From: a virus
Strand: one strand, 5' to 3'
Virus record (IMG/VR): IMGVR_UViG_3300040801_001899
Coordinates: 1 to 39,833 of that record
Length of the DNA stretch: 39,833 nt
Shown: positions 20,210 through 33,340 of the stretch, one piece after another
Position numbering within the stretch: position 1 is the first letter of the stretch
Layout of the letters: every line of letters starts with the position of its first letter
Translations under genes and position numbers: made by a program
Notes under the pieces: generated by a model
Databases searched by the model: none
What the model saw: only the letters and a program-made list of their open reading frames with translations
What the model was told of the DNA's origin: nothing

Positions 20210-21058
20210 TTATGCCTCTGCTGTCTTATCAGCATACCATACCAAAGTCATATCAGGCCTAATACACTTTCCACCATATACGTGCAAACCTTTCATTGCA
20301 TCTGCAAATCTTTTTTCAGGTCGATATGCTTCAACACTTGCAATTTGTTCTGCGAATGTAAATGATTGTCCCCGCACCCCTGCTATGTTTCTGGTAATAT
20401 CCCAACTCGAACTATTCTTAGAAACGTTGGTTGATACTAAAATATCAAATCCAAATATTCTATCCACTAACCCATTAGCCCATAATCCATCATTAACTGT
20501 CTTTGTAGTTAATCCCGCACCGATCAATTTTGATAATACCCACGGAGCCACTACAAGAAATCTGCCTTCCATCGGAATCGACGCGTCGTTAAATGTTTCC
20601 TGAATTGCTAAAATTTCATCCTCAACATTTAAGGTTGTCAAATCAACAGGAGACGCAGAGGTATTTCTCGCCATCCCCGCCTCTGAATATTTCCCTGCAA
20701 AGAATGTATCCACGACATCACGCAACTTATAACCCGCCTTGCGTGTCGCCTCATTCATCAGTTGAACATTTCCTTGACGTTTGTCAATATCGTCAATCTG
20801 AAAATTGAAATATTTCTGCTGATCGATTGTGAGAATGGTTTGAGCATCCGTCAATGCCTCTGGGTCTGCTATATCGGTGTCCTTTGTGTAAGTATTAATT
20901 GTTGGTTCACCCACCATATTTATTCTAACCGTGTCCCCCGCCTGTGATATTTCCCCCTCGTAACTCCTGTTTGCAAGGTTTGCAAATATGTGGCTCTTTT
21001 CAAGTGTGCTGAGAATGTTAGCACTCCACAATTCAGGAATGAAATTATTTAAAGACAT
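20210..21058 (-). CDS. Major capsid protein (P22-coat-like, HK97 fold)
   Basis: The 282-residue protein fits a P22-type coat protein: FIPELWSANILSTLEKSHIFANLANRSYEGEISQAGDTVRI (residues 6-46) is the typical N-terminal arm and E-loop region. RQGNVQLMNEATRKAGYKLRDVVD is the spine-helix region, and GRFLVVAPWVLSKLI..., LVDRIFGFDILVSTNV and GKCIRPDMTLVWYADK belong to the A- and P-domains. It lies between the scaffold and decoration genes. No propeptide or protease gene is apparent, consistent with a scaffold-driven shell. Confidence 0.92.
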   Translation of the reverse strand: MSLNNFIPELWSANILSTLEKSHIFANLANRSYEGEISQAGDTVRINMVGEPTINTYTKDTDIADPEALTDAQTILTIDQQKYFNFQIDDIDKRQGNVQLMNEATRKAGYKLRDVVDTFFAGKYSEAGMARNTSASPVDLTTLNVEDEILAIQETFNDASIPMEGRFLVVAPWVLSKLIGAGLTTKTVNDGLWANGLVDRIFGFDILVSTNVSKNSSSWDITRNIAGVRGQSFTFAEQIASVEAYRPEKRFADAMKGLHVYGGKCIRPDMTLVWYADKTAEA

Positions 21059-21088: not shown

Positions 21089-21766
21089 TTATTTTTTCCA
21101 ATGCCCTGAACTCTCGTTGATCTTATCAATGTTAGCAACTCTTTCTCTCGGCGTCATTGAATCAAATTGTTCCCTCGTAACAAATCCATCTGGTAAATCA
21201 ACATCCAGATTAATCCTGTTACCCGCAATCTTTTTTTCTCCAAACAAATCTTTGTATTCGTTCTTTATCGGTTCAATAATTTCCTTTGCGTTCTTTATCT
21301 CTTCACCTTCCAACTCTATTTTATTCAAATCAAACTTTGATAATAATAAGTCGGGGTGCTTTGCCCCGCTTGACCTCAATGCATCCTTTAAGGCAAATCT
21401 TTTTTGAATCTCCGCCGTCCGTTTCTCCCCCTCCGTCTCGTTCAATTTGATTCTATCCTGTAGTTCTGCTAATTGGGTCTGTAACTCCGTTGCACTCAAA
21501 TTCGCTTTTTTCAGAGTTGCTAACTCCTTTGCGTACTCCGTCGTCTGAGATTTTAGGGTTTTAATCTCATCCAATTTCTCGTTAAACTTTTCTTTAGGTA
21601 ACCACTCACCATTGTTGGTAACCGCCACCGTCTCGTCACTTTTATGTAAGAACGCTTTTTGACCTTTCGGTACTAACTCTAAACTCGCCCCGTCGGTCAA
21701 TTTTTCACTGACCTGTCTAAATAAATCTTCGCCTAAGATTTTTTTTATTGCTTCCATTCTATTCAC
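21089..21766 (-). CDS. Scaffolding protein (gp20-like)
   Basis: The 225-residue protein has a long predicted coiled coil (about residues 60-130, KLDEIKTLKSQTTEYAKELATLKK and onward). A charged C-terminal part follows, with DLPDGFVTREQFDSMTPRERVANIDKINESSG, the pattern of phage minor structural GP20-type scaffolds. It lies directly before the coat gene, with an AAAGGAGTG Shine-Dalgarno. It should guide capsid assembly and then leave or be retained. Confidence 0.85.
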   Translation of the reverse strand: MNRMEAIKKILGEDLFRQVSEKLTDGASLELVPKGQKAFLHKSDETVAVTNNGEWLPKEKFNEKLDEIKTLKSQTTEYAKELATLKKANLSATELQTQLAELQDRIKLNETEGEKRTAEIQKRFALKDALRSSGAKHPDLLLSKFDLNKIELEGEEIKNAKEIIEPIKNEYKDLFGEKKIAGNRINLDVDLPDGFVTREQFDSMTPRERVANIDKINESSGHWKK

Positions 21767-21877: not shown

Positions 21878-22111
21878 TTAAGGTATCAACTCATATCTCA
21901 AATATGATGAACTTCTAAAGGGCAGAAATTCCAGAAATTTTTCTCCGTCCTCTACTTCGATCCTCTCCCCCGTCTCAGGATGAATCTTTCTTTCCTTATC
22001 CAATTTTTCTAATAACTCCTTATTATCGCAAATCACTTCCCCCTCGTCAATCCTGAACTCTGCAATCTTTTTTTTCTCCCCGTTCTCATAACTATATGTA
22101 ATTACTTTCAT
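21878..22111 (-). CDS. Small protein of unknown function
   Basis: The 77-residue product has a beta-hairpin-like start (KVITYSYENGEKKKIAEFRIDEGE) followed by charged helix (NKELLEKLDKERKIH). It lies between the MuF-kinase gene and the scaffold gene, with an AGAAAGG Shine-Dalgarno. No family is recognised. Its position next to the kinase fusion makes an immunity or modulator role worth testing, but that is only a guess from position. Confidence 0.6.
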   Translation of the reverse strand: MKVITYSYENGEKKKIAEFRIDEGEVICDNKELLEKLDKERKIHPETGERIEVEDGEKFLEFLPFRSSSYLRYELIP

Positions 22112-22126
22112 ACTGATCCTTTCTTT

Positions 22127-23959
22127 TTATTCCCACCAATCTTTATGCTGATAGAATGAAGGTTGTTCCCAATCATGCTCTGATAAATATTTTGCCCTTG
22201 CAAACATATCATCTATTTTATGTTGAGCCAACTCCACCTCTTTTAATCTCGCCTCCACCCTCGTCCTGTTACTTAGAAACTTTTTTAATTTTTCTTTAAT
22301 CCCGTCGTTCATCTTCCACCCCCAGTGATTCCCCGCCTCTTCCACTAAATCATTGAAATACGTCTGCCCCCTGAATATAATTCCGTTGTCTATTAAAGCG
22401 ACCTCCCCCGTAGAATTTATCATTAAATTTCCCCCGTGCCTGTCCGTGTTTGCTAAAATAGCATCCATTAAACTTATTCTCTCTCCTAAATCAGTGTCTA
22501 TTATTATATCTCTAACCCTCTCAATATCCCTCGTCCCCGCCGTGTTCAATGTTTTATATCCGTGCTTAAATTCCTGCAAACTCCCCACCCCCGCCCTTGC
22601 GTCCGTATACTTAACTGTTGTCGGAACCAAATTCATCCCTAACTCTTCATCTATTATTGAAGCAGATATTTCATTCTTCCACTGTTCCAAATTAGCAAAC
22701 CCCCCGTATTCCATTGACTTCGGTTTGAATACTCCCTTCGTCCCGTCAGGTGCTGTCTTAATGAAACTTCCATTAACACCTCCGCCCAAATCCTCCGTCG
22801 TCGTATAATTCGCACTCTCCAATCTCTTTCTGTTTGATTCAACAGGAGAAATTTTTCTGTCCCTCTTCATTGGTTTTATTTTTTCTTTTTTCTCTTTTTT
22901 CACCCTCTCTTTTTTTACTTTCTCCTTGACTACCTTCGGTTTTTTTACTTTCTCTTTTATTATTTTTTCTTTTATAACATTACTCGGAACGGTTAACGCT
23001 TTTAACGGTGCAGGATTTTTTATAGGTGCTTTTACTTTTAGAACTCTATTCTGGAAATACTGATTATACGTTTCATATTTTTTTACACCCTCCCCCCTCA
23101 CTCTCATTAAGCTTGGTTTCATCCCCTCAATATTCGTAACCGTCGTACATCTGCAATTTATATCCTGACTTGCCACCCCTGACATAGTAGGTGCTTCCGT
23201 CCACGTCCCGTCGGGTAATATCCATCCACCTTCTTTTGTTTTTTCCTCTTCCCTGCCATCCATATCAATGTGATCCTGCCTCGTCCTTGAATCCAGAGTT
23301 GATAACCACACCCTTGTCATTTTTAACCCCGCCTCCTCCCCGTATTCCTTTGCCTGATTATAAGAGGTTAAATTTCCCCAGTTGTGTGCCCTCTGGCTCT
23401 CCGTCCTGACTATTCTTAAAATATTATTACTAAAATATTTTCCCATCGTGTCCTTGACTTCAATAGCCGTCTTTCTATACCCATCCCCCCTTATCAATCC
23501 ATCAAATACCTTCTGTCTTATCCCCTTATTCAAGTTGTGTGCCCCTAAATCCATCCTCTCCTGCCATTTAATCCTGTCATAAGGGTTTATCATTGACGCC
23601 TCAATCGTCTTTTCATTTAATAAACCAAATCTTAAATCCATCCCCGTCGCACTCTCATATCCCCACCCCGCCCCGTAATAACTCTTTGCAAATGTTTCTT
23701 TGATTAGTTTCTCCGTCCCCCCGTTAATCTCACTATTCATTCGGTTCAGAATACCCGCAATTTGTTTTTCCATATTTTCAAGGCGTCCGTATCTGAACGC
23801 CTCATTGATATTCTTTGCCTTCCCGTGCAACTCCGCTAATCGATCTTTAATCTCATTGTAATAATCAAGGTACTTTGAATATATCCTTAATTCAAACTGA
23901 GATAATCGTGCGTCGTACTCATCCCTCGTCCACTTGAAATATTGGCTTAACTCGTTCAT
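22127..23959 (-). CDS. MuF-type minor head protein fused to a PI3/4-kinase-like domain
   Basis: The 610-residue protein has two parts. Residues 1-275 form a MuF/SPP1 gp7-type head morphogenesis domain, with VRTESQRAHNWGN (184-196), WLSTLDSRTRQDHIDMDG (218-235) and the ending ASQDINCRCT (263-272). A Lys-rich linker (about 328-370) follows. Residues 385-610 look like a PI3/PI4-kinase-type or HipA-like catalytic domain: glycine loop GGGVNGSF (392-399), VFKPKS with Lys412 as ATP-binding lysine, ISASIIDEELG for the helix that pairs with it, catalytic NTDRHGGNLM (504-513) and metal-binding IDNG (523-526). All key kinase residues are present, suggesting activity on a lipid, protein or small molecule. 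MuF proteins ride in the head, so delivery into the host is plausible but inferred. It starts two bases after the portal gene. Confidence 0.85.
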   Translation of the reverse strand: MNELSQYFKWTRDEYDARLSQFELRIYSKYLDYYNEIKDRLAELHGKAKNINEAFRYGRLENMEKQIAGILNRMNSEINGGTEKLIKETFAKSYYGAGWGYESATGMDLRFGLLNEKTIEASMINPYDRIKWQERMDLGAHNLNKGIRQKVFDGLIRGDGYRKTAIEVKDTMGKYFSNNILRIVRTESQRAHNWGNLTSYNQAKEYGEEAGLKMTRVWLSTLDSRTRQDHIDMDGREEEKTKEGGWILPDGTWTEAPTMSGVASQDINCRCTTVTNIEGMKPSLMRVRGEGVKKYETYNQYFQNRVLKVKAPIKNPAPLKALTVPSNVIKEKIIKEKVKKPKVVKEKVKKERVKKEKKEKIKPMKRDRKISPVESNRKRLESANYTTTEDLGGGVNGSFIKTAPDGTKGVFKPKSMEYGGFANLEQWKNEISASIIDEELGMNLVPTTVKYTDARAGVGSLQEFKHGYKTLNTAGTRDIERVRDIIIDTDLGERISLMDAILANTDRHGGNLMINSTGEVALIDNGIIFRGQTYFNDLVEEAGNHWGWKMNDGIKEKLKKFLSNRTRVEARLKEVELAQHKIDDMFARAKYLSEHDWEQPSFYQHKDWWE

Positions 23960-23961
23960 CT

Positions 23962-25512
23962 TTATTTATTTTTTTCCTGACCTTCCCCCTCATCCTCATC
24001 CTCCCCGTCTGGTTCATTCAGGTAAGGGTCATTTATTTTCATCTCCTCCTGTTCCGCTTCCATCAAATCAATTTCATTCTCCTTTGCGTACGGGTGTTCA
24101 CTTACTATTGTTTCCATACTCAAAATTCCACGACTTTCGTTCAATGATTTAATTTTTTCTGCCTCATTCGTTATTGCGGACTTATCAAACGTCACCGCTA
24201 ATAATTTGTAATCATACTCCCCGCCATCCTTTGCAACATCTTTCAGATAAACCGAAATAAAATAAAACAAATCACTTAACGCCAAATTTAATTTCCTGAT
24301 AATTACATTTGCTTTTAAATCCAATAAAGAATAAATAAACTTCAACGCCACCCCCGAAGGTGCGTTTCCAAACTTATCTGTTTTCAGATTGACCGCCATA
24401 CCATTGATAAAAATATTATCCTCTTCCCTGTCTAAATGTGCCTTACTCGCCTTTTCAGGTAAATCCAATACCTTCGGTTCTGCCCCTCCGTCCTCTCCCA
24501 CCTTCAGCGCCTTATAGGTTTTCAAATTTTTCCTAAATTCCCTTAGACTATCCCCCTCGTAATTCTCTAATACCCAAATAGCATCCTGCAAATCTGCAAG
24601 TTTATTACTCATATCTGAATTGTGTAAATCGTAATCATCTATCAAATTTTTAATCGGTCTTAGGTCGTTTATCCTTTCATCATTATTCGGCAACTCAATG
24701 AACGGCACACTCCCCCAACTTCCAGAAATAATATTTTCAGGATCTTCTGTATTATACTCTACCCAGTGAGGACGTGGGTTTCCCCCGTTCATCGCTTCCT
24801 GAATATCCAGAACATAATAATTGTCCCCGTAACTCCCTCCCCTTTTCTCTTCAATGTAAAAAGTAACTTTCTCCTCATCGTACCATTCCACTTTCTTTTT
24901 AAATTCACTTTCCCCCTTAGAATTTATAAACTCAAATTCATAATACCTGATAATACTCATTAACTTTTTTTGGTAACGTGAATCATAGACAGGAATTATT
25001 TGTTCTGCGGGTATAATTACATAATCAAACTCCCCCTCTTCATTTATAAACACGTGTAACCACTCCGTCCCCTTATTACTCGCCCCCTTAATCCATTGAG
25101 GTAACATATCATCAAACTGTTCCCCTAAAATCTCAATCACTTTATCCTTAAACTCTTCCGCCATCTTATTGTCTTTCTCCTTAGACGTAATCTTGATCGG
25201 CTTCCCTGCAATATATCCCGCCTTCTGCTCTACAATGATCCTGTGGAACGTGTGCTGTAACTTTGCGTTACTTGCCTCCTTATCCTCAACCTCCTGAGAA
25301 TCTAAGAAATAAGTAATCTTTCTTCTATTTATTTCAATGTGCTTCGCCTCGAAATACTTCACCCCCGTCCGCATCTCTTTTTTTAACTCACTGAACTCAT
25401 CTTTTTTAATCAAGTGTTTCAATACCTCTGAATCACTTACACTCTGCTGATGTTTTTGTTTAGCTAACCTTAACCGTGTGTTTGCTATGTCCGTCTGCGT
25501 TAAATATGCCAT
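23962..25512 (-). CDS. Portal protein (SPP1 gp6-like)
   Basis: The 516-residue protein has the features of the SPP1-type portal: RTGVKYFEAKHIEINRRKI near residues 48-66, IIVEQKAGYIAGKPIKI (about 91-107), an internal SWGSVPFIELPNNDERINDLRPIKNLIDDYDLHNSDMSNKLADLQDAIWVL segment (about 265-315) and a helical LDLKANVIIRKLNLAL part. The last 25 residues are strongly acidic. It forms the dodecameric DNA gateway bound by the terminase, and lies directly after the large terminase gene. Confidence 0.93.
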   Translation of the reverse strand: MAYLTQTDIANTRLRLAKQKHQQSVSDSEVLKHLIKKDEFSELKKEMRTGVKYFEAKHIEINRRKITYFLDSQEVEDKEASNAKLQHTFHRIIVEQKAGYIAGKPIKITSKEKDNKMAEEFKDKVIEILGEQFDDMLPQWIKGASNKGTEWLHVFINEEGEFDYVIIPAEQIIPVYDSRYQKKLMSIIRYYEFEFINSKGESEFKKKVEWYDEEKVTFYIEEKRGGSYGDNYYVLDIQEAMNGGNPRPHWVEYNTEDPENIISGSWGSVPFIELPNNDERINDLRPIKNLIDDYDLHNSDMSNKLADLQDAIWVLENYEGDSLREFRKNLKTYKALKVGEDGGAEPKVLDLPEKASKAHLDREEDNIFINGMAVNLKTDKFGNAPSGVALKFIYSLLDLKANVIIRKLNLALSDLFYFISVYLKDVAKDGGEYDYKLLAVTFDKSAITNEAEKIKSLNESRGILSMETIVSEHPYAKENEIDLMEAEQEEMKINDPYLNEPDGEDEDEGEGQEKNK

Positions 25513-25540: not shown

Positions 25541-26797
25541 TTATTTAAGAAACTCAATCGGTCGTCCCCTTATAACAGGTTCTAACCCGTACCGCATAGC
25601 ATCCATAAGGTGGTTATTAAAATCGACGGGAGTTTCCTGAACTATCCCGTCCTTATCCTTTTCGTAAACATAACTCTGAACTTCACTAATAAAATTAACA
25701 CACTCGGAATTTATATGCATAAAATGCGACCTGATCCATCCAATCCCGTGCGTTACCGAATCCTTTTCTTTCTTCGCCCCCACTACCCGCCAATTATCTT
25801 TTCTCCAACTCTTCAACCTCGCAGGTTCTGCACTATCCGCTACCACCCTGAAAGGTCTCGCACCAAATTTTTCAACCTCAACCATTAACTCTGGATTATC
25901 TAAACCCCTGACATATAACTCCCTTAAAATAAATATCTCGTCGTCCTTAAATCCAATCATACACGTTGCACTCGGTTCATTAAAACCGAAATCCTGCCCC
26001 ACGTAAACCTCTGATTGGTGGAATATTATATCTGGTTCATATTCTTTTGGCTCATATACCCCCTCAATCCAGTATTTAATTTTCTCAATCTTATAATTTG
26101 AGTAAACCGTTTCCCCTAATACACCCCAATTCCCCAATGCGTAAATGTCATATAAATTTTTATTCTTATTCTTTAACCCCTCCAATTTATTTTTGTAACC
26201 CTCATCCACAAACCTGTTTAACAGATAAGTAGACTTCATTAAATAAATATCGTCCCGTTCATAATCAAAAAACTCTTTCTTAATCCAACTCAATGAACTA
26301 ACAGGATTAAAACTCATTGTAATATTAAACGGTACGTTATACTTTCCCCTCAATCTTAAATCTAATAAATCAAAATCCTCCTGCGTCACCTGATCCGCTT
26401 CCTCTATCCAGATGTCCGTCAATATACCTTTCTTGAATGTAATAGATTTTAATTTACTGACATCATCCAGACCCGCAAACGCAATCTCATTCCCATTAAC
26501 GCACTTAATACTCAACTGCCCCGTATTACTTTTAAACCACCTCTCGCAATCCCACTGGTATATGCACTTGTTTATTTCCGCAAACGTACTTAACCGATTA
26601 TCCTTTGCAACTTTCCTAACCACTAATAAATTTCTCCCCCTCGTCTCTAATATTTTCTTAACCTGTTTCTGTACTACAAATACACTTTTACCACTCCCCG
26701 CACCCCCGTAATAAATTTCATATCTTTTATCGTGCTTATTGAAATATGGGTAAAATGCATCATTTATATTATTCTTTGGAATACTTAAACTTGCCAT
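25541..26797 (-). CDS. terL: Terminase large subunit
   Basis: The 418-residue packaging motor has an ATPase half with Walker A GGAGSGKS (31-38), Walker B ILTDIWIEEAD (125-135) and a coupling motif around SFNP (162-165). The nuclease half has acidic residues in GQDFGF (Asp269), VADSAE (Asp321) and NHLMDAMRYG (Asp399). It belongs to the PBSX/Terminase_3-type group. The small subunit is just upstream and the portal just downstream. Packaging type (cos or pac) is not readable from the sequence. Confidence 0.96.
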   Translation of the reverse strand: MASLSIPKNNINDAFYPYFNKHDKRYEIYYGGAGSGKSVFVVQKQVKKILETRGRNLLVVRKVAKDNRLSTFAEINKCIYQWDCERWFKSNTGQLSIKCVNGNEIAFAGLDDVSKLKSITFKKGILTDIWIEEADQVTQEDFDLLDLRLRGKYNVPFNITMSFNPVSSLSWIKKEFFDYERDDIYLMKSTYLLNRFVDEGYKNKLEGLKNKNKNLYDIYALGNWGVLGETVYSNYKIEKIKYWIEGVYEPKEYEPDIIFHQSEVYVGQDFGFNEPSATCMIGFKDDEIFILRELYVRGLDNPELMVEVEKFGARPFRVVADSAEPARLKSWRKDNWRVVGAKKEKDSVTHGIGWIRSHFMHINSECVNFISEVQSYVYEKDKDGIVQETPVDFNNHLMDAMRYGLEPVIRGRPIEFLK

Positions 26798-27245: not shown

Positions 27246-28019
27246 TCAAATTCCTTTAATTGGTACTTTTATGATAGGGTTATAATCAATCTGTCTTTTC
27301 TTTTTTTTCAGATTATGCGACCTGTCGTTATTATCACTTCTTACAATATCACTACCCCACTTTTTTTGTAATAATCTTAACTGCTCTTTCTCTTTATCCA
27401 TATTCCTGTAATCAGCACAACCCCCCGCCTGTTCTGATTGTTTAACATCATAAAAAAACTTATTAACCCTTAAGACCTTTCTGTATTTATTTAACTGCTG
27501 TATCGTCATATCGTAATCCTCTTTTAAGGGCAACGTCTCGTCATAATAACACTCGTTCCCTTTTAAAAAAACCCCGAAGGGTCCGCCACAAAAACTCGTA
27601 AAACTAAACGGCGTATATTCCCGATAATTCTGAGGATCAGGAGAAACGTTAACCCCCCAATAATAAGCACCCAATCCCCGAGCAATTAAAGAATATTTAT
27701 TTATGAAAAATAAAAACTCTTCTTGGCTGACTAAATATTTTTTTTGTTTTTCCCAGTAATATAAACCCTTCATATCGTCGTCAAGAATTACAACAGCATC
27801 CACCCCCTGCTTAAATTCTGTTTTTAATATATGATTCCTGATCCTGCTTACATTCCCCTGTATCCCCTTTTTACATTTTATTATCTCAAGGTAACCGTTG
27901 GTTAACTTGTATTCTTTGTATTCACTTTCATCAACATAAACTTTTATAAACCCTAAATACTCCCCCGTCTTCACTCTCGGTCTTTTATAACTCGGAACAC
28001 AAACAGAAATCTTAAGCAT
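27246..28019 (-). CDS. GT-A glycosyltransferase resembling TET-associated phage enzymes (TAGT-like)
   Basis: The 257-residue protein opens with ISVCVPSYKRP (residues 4-14) and continues with GNVSRIRNHIL (55-65), the metal-binding LDDDM (79-83), CGGPFGVFLKG (144-154) and LKEDYDM (165-171). This layout fits the GT-A-fold TAGT group that Iyer, Aravind and colleagues linked to phage DNA base modification. Such genes often sit near ParB-like and terminase genes, as here. The gene overlaps the ParB-like gene by eight bases and is followed by both terminase subunits. No TET/JBP oxygenase, base hydroxylase or cytosine methylase is visible in this genome, so the acceptor base or another acceptor is unknown. 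Similarity to TAGT is judged by eye. Confidence 0.6.
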   Translation of the reverse strand: MLKISVCVPSYKRPRVKTGEYLGFIKVYVDESEYKEYKLTNGYLEIIKCKKGIQGNVSRIRNHILKTEFKQGVDAVVILDDDMKGLYYWEKQKKYLVSQEEFLFFINKYSLIARGLGAYYWGVNVSPDPQNYREYTPFSFTSFCGGPFGVFLKGNECYYDETLPLKEDYDMTIQQLNKYRKVLRVNKFFYDVKQSEQAGGCADYRNMDKEKEQLRLLQKKWGSDIVRSDNNDRSHNLKKKKRQIDYNPIIKVPIKGI

Positions 28020-30190: not shown

Positions 30191-30643
30191 TTAAATTTTT
30201 ATTCCTAACCTTCCCCTCTGTTCCTGACATTTCACCCGATAAACTTCTGCAATCTGCGGGTAATTGAAAAAGTTCTGTTTCAATTTATGCCTGTCTCTGT
30301 TTAACTCTTCAAACCCCGCCTCCCCCAATTTATTTTTTAATCCCCTTTCGTAATTTGATTTGTCCCCTCCCGCATAAGTATTCAAATAAGAAAATTGCCC
30401 GTTTACATTCCTTTCATCAAATCTAACTGAGCCGTATTTATCAGCGTTCCAATAATGTGAAGCACACCATTCCCGCCCGTTCATTATTTGATTATTTGAA
30501 TTAAGTACGGCCACCCACTTCTTACCAGAGGAAATACATATTCCAAAAATATTTCCTTTATCATCTTTTTGTAAATCCCTTAGACAAATAAATTTATTAA
30601 AATACTTAACCGCCCGTTCCTCAAATTTACTTTTATATTTCAT
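30191..30643 (-). CDS. NinG/Rap-like recombination protein, diverged
   Basis: The 150-residue protein has the layout of the lambda NinG (Rap) family: ICISSGKKW (35-43), WCASHYWNADKYGSVRFDERNVNGQ (59-83), then YLNTYAGGDKSNYERGLKNKLGEAGFEEL. His63 and the RFDERN core are kept, but most of the usual zinc Cys are replaced (CxxC reads CISS, and the later QC..CN reads QFSYLN). It may still bind Holliday junctions with a changed metal site, or be a non-catalytic derivative. It lies in the replication/recombination operon after the loader-like gene. Confidence 0.65.
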   Translation of the reverse strand: MKYKSKFEERAVKYFNKFICLRDLQKDDKGNIFGICISSGKKWVAVLNSNNQIMNGREWCASHYWNADKYGSVRFDERNVNGQFSYLNTYAGGDKSNYERGLKNKLGEAGFEELNRDRHKLKQNFFNYPQIAEVYRVKCQEQRGRLGIKI

Positions 30644-32194: not shown

Positions 32195-33340
32195 TTAAAC
32201 CTTTCTGCTCAATTCAGCTTTTAATTTCTGTTCCTTATCCTGAATTAAATTTTTAATATCAGCATAATCCTGCAGAACAGGTAACGTCTGTATTTCTTTG
32301 GAATATTTCTTATAGAAATTTTGAAGGTGTGGAAGGTTATCAATCTCATTTATTTTTGATTTAAACCAATCGGACGTCCTCTCTTCTTTTAATGGTTCGG
32401 TTATCTTATTCTCGGCATTAAATTCTTTCTCTGCCTTTAATTCATCCTCTATCTGCGACCGTCTAATACTAAACCACTTTTTTACTTTATCATTTCCCGT
32501 CTGTGCCTCTGATAACAAACCCCAAACCACTTTTAACTCTTCAATCGTTTGGCAATTTAAAACCCTTAATTCAACCTCTTTTAGATTCAATTTTGCCACC
32601 TTCGGCTTTTTCTCTATGTCCGTCTTTTTTTCTTCAATAACCGTCGCAGGATCGGTTTTCTCTTCTGCCTTGACATTTACTACCTTATCCAACATTATGG
32701 GTTTAGTCTTACCATTTCCCTTCTTTGTTTCCTTTGATTCAATACCCACTCCTAACTCACTCAATACCTTCTGAGTTGTTTCCATTAACATTTCAGGGGT
32801 GACAACCTTCGGATTTTCAATCTGTTGCATTTCCTCGTCCCCGTACACCCCGCTTAAATCTTCGGGGGTTACCATTCTTAAGACACTTTCCTCTGCAACC
32901 TTCTTAATCATTGTTTCAGGAAACTGTAACCAGAATTTAGTCGGTTTGCCCTCTTTCGTAACCTGTACATATTCATTAAACGGAACTTCATCATAAAATA
33001 CCCCTCCCGTGTCCGTTACTATCTTGCAATAACCATAAAGCGTTTTTTTACCTGAAATATTTTCTTTAATCAATGTTCCACGTGAAACGTCTTTTAACTT
33101 TCCATTCCTTTGTGCTATTGCTCTCATCCCGTCGATCCCCGCCTGTATAGAATACATTTTATTCCATACTCCGTTATTGTTACTTCTTCTTTCAATTAAA
33201 TGGATCTGTCTGAGAAATGGATTTAATTTTTTCAACTCACAAACTTTAAAAAAGAAATCTATTTGTGATTGAGGTGTGTCCTTTGGTATGATTCCATTAG
33301 CTACCAATAACTTTACGTCTTCATTTGTGTATGCACTCAT
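32195..33340 (-). CDS. bet: Bet/RecT-type single-strand annealing protein
   Basis: The 381-residue protein has the Bet core: QIDFFFKVCELKKLNPFLRQIHLIER (about 26-51), YSIQAGIDGMRAIAQRNG (about 63-80), KKVAEESVLRMVTPEDLSGVYGDEEM (about 146-171). It should pair complementary single strands during recombination and replication. A charged C-terminal extension from about residue 200 is longer than in phage lambda Bet and may bind other proteins. No RecE/Exo-type or YqaJ exonuclease is visible in the genome, so it acts with host nucleases or alone. It has an AGAAAGGG Shine-Dalgarno. Confidence 0.9.
   Translation of the reverse strand: MSAYTNEDVKLLVANGIIPKDTPQSQIDFFFKVCELKKLNPFLRQIHLIERRSNNNGVWNKMYSIQAGIDGMRAIAQRNGKLKDVSRGTLIKENISGKKTLYGYCKIVTDTGGVFYDEVPFNEYVQVTKEGKPTKFWLQFPETMIKKVAEESVLRMVTPEDLSGVYGDEEMQQIENPKVVTPEMLMETTQKVLSELGVGIESKETKKGNGKTKPIMLDKVVNVKAEEKTDPATVIEEKKTDIEKKPKVAKLNLKEVELRVLNCQTIEELKVVWGLLSEAQTGNDKVKKWFSIRRSQIEDELKAEKEFNAENKITEPLKEERTSDWFKSKINEIDNLPHLQNFYKKYSKEIQTLPVLQDYADIKNLIQDKEQKLKAELSRKV

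Follow-up and report, generated by a model that had tools for sequence, protein, structure and literature searches.

We describe here a two-gene cassette from the IMG/VR virus record IMGVR_UViG_3300040801_001899, a stretch of 39,833 bases (37% G+C) referred to below as the window. The first gene (22127-23959, minus strand) has an ATG start and an unbroken reading frame of 610 amino acids, and it joins a MuF head protein, through a low-complexity linker, to a kinase domain of predicted type II phosphatidylinositol 4-kinase (PI4KII)/Fam20-like fold. The second (21878-22111, minus strand) encodes a 77-amino-acid protein, the predicted neutralizer of the kinase, and since this small downstream gene is conserved, the kinase reads not as a lone enzyme but as one half of a cassette of effector and partner. 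We consider it fairly probable that the pair represents a MuF-type injected effector kinase and the cognate partner that neutralizes it.

The MuF domain covers residues 146-273 (23141-23524, minus strand; PF04233, E 1.5e-14, above the Pfam gathering score), and its phage relatives are about 25-30% identical to it. The MuF/gp7 motifs WLSTLDSRTRQDH and DINCRC were located at residues 218-230 and 266-271, and all the motifs that the initial annotation had named in this gene, from its sequence alone, were found where it had placed them. MuF proteins belong to the phage head, and an enzyme joined to one is believed to reach the cell together with the DNA (PMC5512222, PMC5576092). Like the MuF polymorphic toxins of Jamet 2017 (PMC5576092), Zhang 2012 (PMC3482391), and Iyer 2017 (PMC5512222), the window has its MuF gene directly downstream of the portal gene, a variable C-terminal domain, and a small open reading frame (ORF) of less than 150 amino acids next to it; such an ORF is reported to follow 89.4% of MuF toxins versus 25.5% of short MuFs (PMC5576092). 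Related MuF proteins without the kinase have either a short end or an HExxH-type domain in its place, and in four of them (L076, L077, L080, and L086) the C-terminal HExxH-containing domain is metallopeptidase-like.

The kinase domain spans residues 381-610 (22130-22819, minus strand). Our results bear out the claim of the initial annotation that a MuF head protein is fused to a complete PI3/PI4-type kinase domain: besides the MuF match, PF00454 (PI3_PI4_kinase) matches residues 493-530 (E 4.5e-9, 37.0 bits against a cut-off of 27.1), and all the proposed catalytic residues are present. These comprise a Gly-rich loop, GGGVNGSF (residues 392-399; 22763-22786, minus strand), the predicted ATP-binding lysine K412 (22724-22726, minus strand) within VFKPKS (410-415), the catalytic motif NTDRHGGN with D506 and N511 (504-511; 22427-22450, minus strand), and the metal-binding motif IDNG with D524 (523-526; 22382-22393, minus strand), where PI4KII aligns. 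When 25 relatives with about 20-35% identity to the window kinase are aligned, K412, E430, D499, D506, R507, I523, D524, and R588 are invariant, and N504, H508, G510, N511, and G526 are at least 90% conserved. The kinase thus appears intact, with its ATP-binding lysine, catalytic aspartate, and metal-binding aspartate in place. That the domain is catalytically dead and acts only in a structural or DNA-binding role is very improbable given these invariant residues in such divergent relatives, even if Fam20A, a close profile match, is a pseudokinase and activity here is a prediction from sequence.

The structure and profile searches, which could have pointed to a non-kinase fold, gave a kinase fold. 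The AlphaFold2 model of residues 381-610 has a mean predicted local distance difference test score (pLDDT) of 86 and a predicted template modeling score (pTM) of 0.88, and Foldseek against the PDB places PI4KII-alpha first (E 3.6e-9, TM 0.67 by query length, root-mean-square deviation 4.9), followed by Fam20A/C and CtkA (about 1.6e-5) and VPS34. While phmmer with the window protein gave no useful match among PDB sequences, the family profile succeeded, and its best chains were PI4K2A (3.4e-15), then PI4K2B, Fam20A, and Fam20C. By sequence and model, the kinase is closest to type II PI4-kinases and Fam20, so the kind of kinase first proposed was right, but it is not a PI3K proper. The comparison with HipA, also suggested then, gave no HipA_C match at E<=1 in the window kinase, weak matches being limited to Myxococcus phage Mx1 and one other locus (L020), and PADLOC returned nothing beyond weak PDC-M03A matches. 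TIGR03843 matches residues 408-596 (E 4.6e-11), although its 46.9 bits lie under the equivalog cut-off of 172.4.

The partner ORF starts 15 nucleotides past the kinase stop codon, and small ORFs in the same place in relatives have in common a pattern that ends in D-G-x-x-F-L-x-x-L-x-x-x-Y-x-G-S-Y-x-R-A. A leave-one-out hidden Markov model (HMM) recovered the window partner with E 2.2e-8 among 7,222 ORFs, and 10 of 12 members fell below 1e-5, with L009 and L036 missed. When the full HMM was run over 50 loci (628 kb, 4,528 ORFs, 51 of them kinases), it gave 24 matches at E<0.01, 12 of which are training members, and 23 of the 24 lie behind a kinase ORF. Most of these 23 touch the kinase ORF or start within 40 nucleotides of it; the distance is 228 nucleotides in L006, and in L020 and L028 the partner lies inside over-long ORF calls. 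The partners of L021 and L028 were found although they are outside the training set (5.9e-5 and 2e-8), and three weaker matches (L010, L030, and L063; E 0.4-0.7) also stand behind kinases. Partners were present at 10 of 10 MuF-kinase loci and at none of the 14 IMG/VR loci with a related MuF protein and no kinase. Genome searches that started from the partner gave six good matches (E<=1e-5), five of them with a kinase directly upstream; G538 and G739 are new, and the others are not independent of the earlier kinase scan. No partner turned up in the 391 genomes searched from one class, a result that is uninformative. The family has no match at a useful score in Pfam, PHROGs, or NCBIfam, and the AlphaFold2 model of the partner has a pLDDT of 90.7. 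One locus carries a tandem kinase-partner-kinase-partner array (L029:4057-6806). A single-chain model of kinase and partner, read through the stop codon, was given up when their joint alignment misplaced the partner rows.

The initial annotation had suggested that such a kinase is not a standard partner of MuF proteins. The fusion is no one-off, as it recurs in environmental phages. Single-sequence scans of IMG/VR with the kinase, the whole protein, or the portal found no relatives, whereas scans with a three-sequence alignment (A3) gave 34 viral and 11 genome loci. Nine other loci, from IMG/VR and one metagenome-assembled genome, repeat the MuF-linker-kinase architecture in one ORF: MuF is above the Pfam cut-off in six (L009, L021, L028, L033, L035, and L036), below it in L031 and L043, and recognized by motif only in L022. 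The L021 kinase is recognized by the family HMM and not by Pfam, and the PF00454 score of L036 is below the cut-off. The linker of the window protein (residues 325-386; 22802-22987, minus strand) is indeed Lys-rich, with 20 lysines, as had been noted when it was proposed to be a movable or cleavable joint, but in relatives such as L009, L021, and L028 it is Pro/Ala-rich, so the conserved feature is a low-complexity spacer and not the lysines. The A-rich linker DNA contains several slippery heptamers, along with a single internal TTG preceded by GGAGG, but a programmed frameshift or an internal start there found no further support and was set aside.

By sequence and domain models, the kinase and its partner are also used on other carriers. 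The kinase is fused to a Mu-type portal in L024 and preceded by 2H and HAD-like domains in L023, and in L068 the pair occurs on a polyvalent protein of 2,042 amino acids. The pair is found on bacterial proteins that resemble secreted toxins in L012, L013, and L070, and probably in L010; our assignment of these carriers is a reading of their N-terminal regions, which have no family match. On three actinobacterial plasmids (Microbacterium, Brevibacterium pAP13, and Micrococcus luteus; L062, L063, and L064), a stand-alone kinase of 298-410 amino acids is followed by an ORF of 84-94 amino acids, possibly in the manner of a toxin-antitoxin pair, with weak matches of the small ORFs to the partner HMM (E 0.0018, 0.009, and 0.5 in a 12-sequence set). 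The archaeal viruses HSTV-2 (gp16) and HHTV-1 (gp13) encode the kinase near head genes, and the small ORFs that follow have no match to the partner HMM. Isolated phages rarely carry the kinase: tblastn of the window domain against 50,697 records found only Myxococcus phage Mx1 at E<=0.01. A kinase profile search in 399 genomes of one phylum gave nothing beyond the one already known.

We propose that the MuF part would set the protein in the head next to the portal, and that the C-terminal kinase would enter the next cell along with the DNA and phosphorylate a host target there. The small gene, translated right after the kinase, would yield a protein dedicated to binding the kinase and holding it in check inside the producing cell, and in a recipient without this partner the kinase would be active on entry. 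Phosphatidylinositol is rare in bacteria except in a few groups, and we therefore infer that a protein target is more likely. By analogy with other MuF proteins, packaging and injection of the MuF-kinase are plausible (PMC5512222, PMC5576092). A prophage-encoded polymorphic ADP-ribosyltransferase (ART) toxin has two proven cognate immunity proteins (PMC11699363), and the window shares this layout.

Several points weigh against this proposal. Packaging, ejection, kinase activity, substrate, harm to the host, and neutralization are all steps that we infer. Roughly half of the 51 kinase ORFs lack a recognizable partner, and a search of the PDB with the partner model gave no match (best E 0.9), either to HipS or to other known antitoxins. 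In L024, L039, L023, and L006 the partner makes up the N-terminal domain of a larger protein encoded next to the kinase, which would fit a regulatory subunit no less than an immunity protein. The global distance matrices of kinase and partner are uncorrelated in two Mantel tests (Mantel r 0.06, p 0.32). Their near neighbors do match (p 0.0005, in a nearest-neighbor test chosen post hoc), suggesting that kinase and partner are matched over short distances at least. In addition, there is no sign that the phage is temperate: RecT and NinG are present and an integrase is absent from the ten genes scanned, in a record that is possibly incomplete.

Because some phages have the partner joined to the protein that follows, the rival that deserves most weight keeps the injected effector kinase and makes the partner its activator, adaptor, or docking subunit. 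We judge this unlikely. The four fusions mean that the partner, too, is possibly in the virion, and a single partner family is kept across very different carriers; however, the secreted-toxin-like loci L012, L013, and L070 and the possible plasmid pairs have the layout of toxin and immunity genes, and one orphan partner exists (L069:2594-2857, minus strand), the sole exception among the 24 matches, with no kinase within the 12 kb examined.

Two other explanations have a smaller chance still. The kinase could serve assembly, phosphorylating scaffold, portal, or capsid proteins inside the procapsid under regulation by the partner and leaving the next host untouched, as the position of the gene between portal and scaffold and the frequent use of head proteins as carriers would suggest. 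The same pair, however, is carried by bacterial secreted-type proteins (L010, L013, and L070), and the stretches read at these loci showed no head genes; plasmids possibly carry it too, and related MuF phages do without the kinase. Equally improbable in our view is a benign kinase of early takeover which, by the logic of T7 gp0.7 or T4 Alt, would modify host machinery or defenses to aid infection and poison nothing. In other phages the kinase sits in large polyvalent proteins with ART, 2H, or HAD-like domains (L023 and L003), and polyvalent proteins have been described as early-phase effectors (PMC5512222), but the dedicated partner and the reuse in secreted-toxin-like bacterial proteins point to a producer that needs protection.

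An effector kinase with a neutralizing partner also allows a wider view, which is tentative and which we hold to be possible but doubtful: kinase and partner would form an undescribed, mobile toxin-neutralizer family, exchanged among the heads of phages, polyvalent injected proteins, bacterial secreted toxins, viruses of archaea, and plasmids. Phages of the L024 type, in which the portal carries the kinase and the head protein encoded next carries the partner, would pack the two into one virion and separate them at ejection, which would arm the kinase only on entry. In this locus (L024:4315-8383), the portal-kinase is followed by the partner fused to a protein with an end that is MuF-like by eye, placing kinase and partner on different head proteins.

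Compared with known systems, the window kinase has the fold and motif order of type II PI4-kinases and Fam20, which are its best PDB matches by profile and model, but it is about 20% identical to them, is far smaller, and belongs to a prokaryotic virus, where it is fused to a head protein and where a lipid substrate is unlikely in most bacteria. All 25 aligned relatives match TIGR03843 (best 2e-62), the model of the SCO1664 proteins, which have no assigned function and were mentioned in a single paper of the literature searched, while the window itself stays below its cut-off. With HipBST and HipA kinases there is a wider likeness, that of a HipA-like kinase toxin held in check by a small protein (HipS), and CtkA is a Foldseek match, but HipA_C gives no match here, gene order and carriers differ, and a HipS-like partner was rejected after the fold search. 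The truncated S/T/Y kinases of polyvalent proteins, as described in PMC5512222, have lost the whole C-terminal subdomain, whereas the model of the window kinase keeps helices after the IDNG strand (domain residues 152-214). A further relative is gp54 of Mycobacterium prophage prophiFSQJ01-1, a minor capsid protein of the VG15 type that resembles the window protein in following the portal directly and in having a related kinase domain; unlike it, gp54 has an extra C-terminal ART and the motifs NHDTHAGQ and IDKG. The record of this capsid-ART protein names the capsid and ART parts only and leaves the kinase-like domain in its middle (L003:2627-6139) unannotated. Fusions named for MuF polymorphic toxins include nucleases, a peptidase, RelA/SpoT, ART, a zeta-toxin kinase, 2H, and Nudix; no description of a PI4KII/Fam20-like kinase on a MuF protein was found in the searchable literature, which leaves out most subscription journals and bioRxiv and is not proof of absence. 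We regard the cassette as a new effector class with a new partner family within the MuF polymorphic toxins.

The surrounding genes are those of a phage head module on the minus strand. An SPP1-type portal protein (23962-25512; PF05133, E 9.9e-82) lies directly upstream of the fusion gene, with 2 nucleotides between them, and is preceded by the terminase large subunit (25541-26797; PF04466, E 3.2e-52). The scaffolding protein (21089-21766; PF06810, E 2.4e-24) and the major capsid protein (20210-21058; PF25209, E 2.7e-13) lie on the other side, and the MuF-kinase gene, between the portal and this pair, is in the usual MuF position. RecT recombinase (32195-33340; E 7e-29) and NinG (30191-30643; E 1.7e-10) are also on the minus strand, as is a TET-associated glycosyltransferase domain (27246-28019; PF20691, E 1.8e-11), which hints that this phage may have modified, glycosylated DNA. 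Scans for tRNA and Rfam families, as clues to the host, found no match.

The domains described on MuF proteins so far are mostly known toxins or nucleotide enzymes. To these, a PI4KII/Fam20-group kinase on head and portal proteins would add injected effectors of a new class, coupled to a partner that looks dedicated to the kinase and whose family is unlisted. The pair offers a testable case of a phage that keeps an enzyme silent until entry, and its presence on bacterial secreted-type proteins provides an accessible system for finding the substrate.
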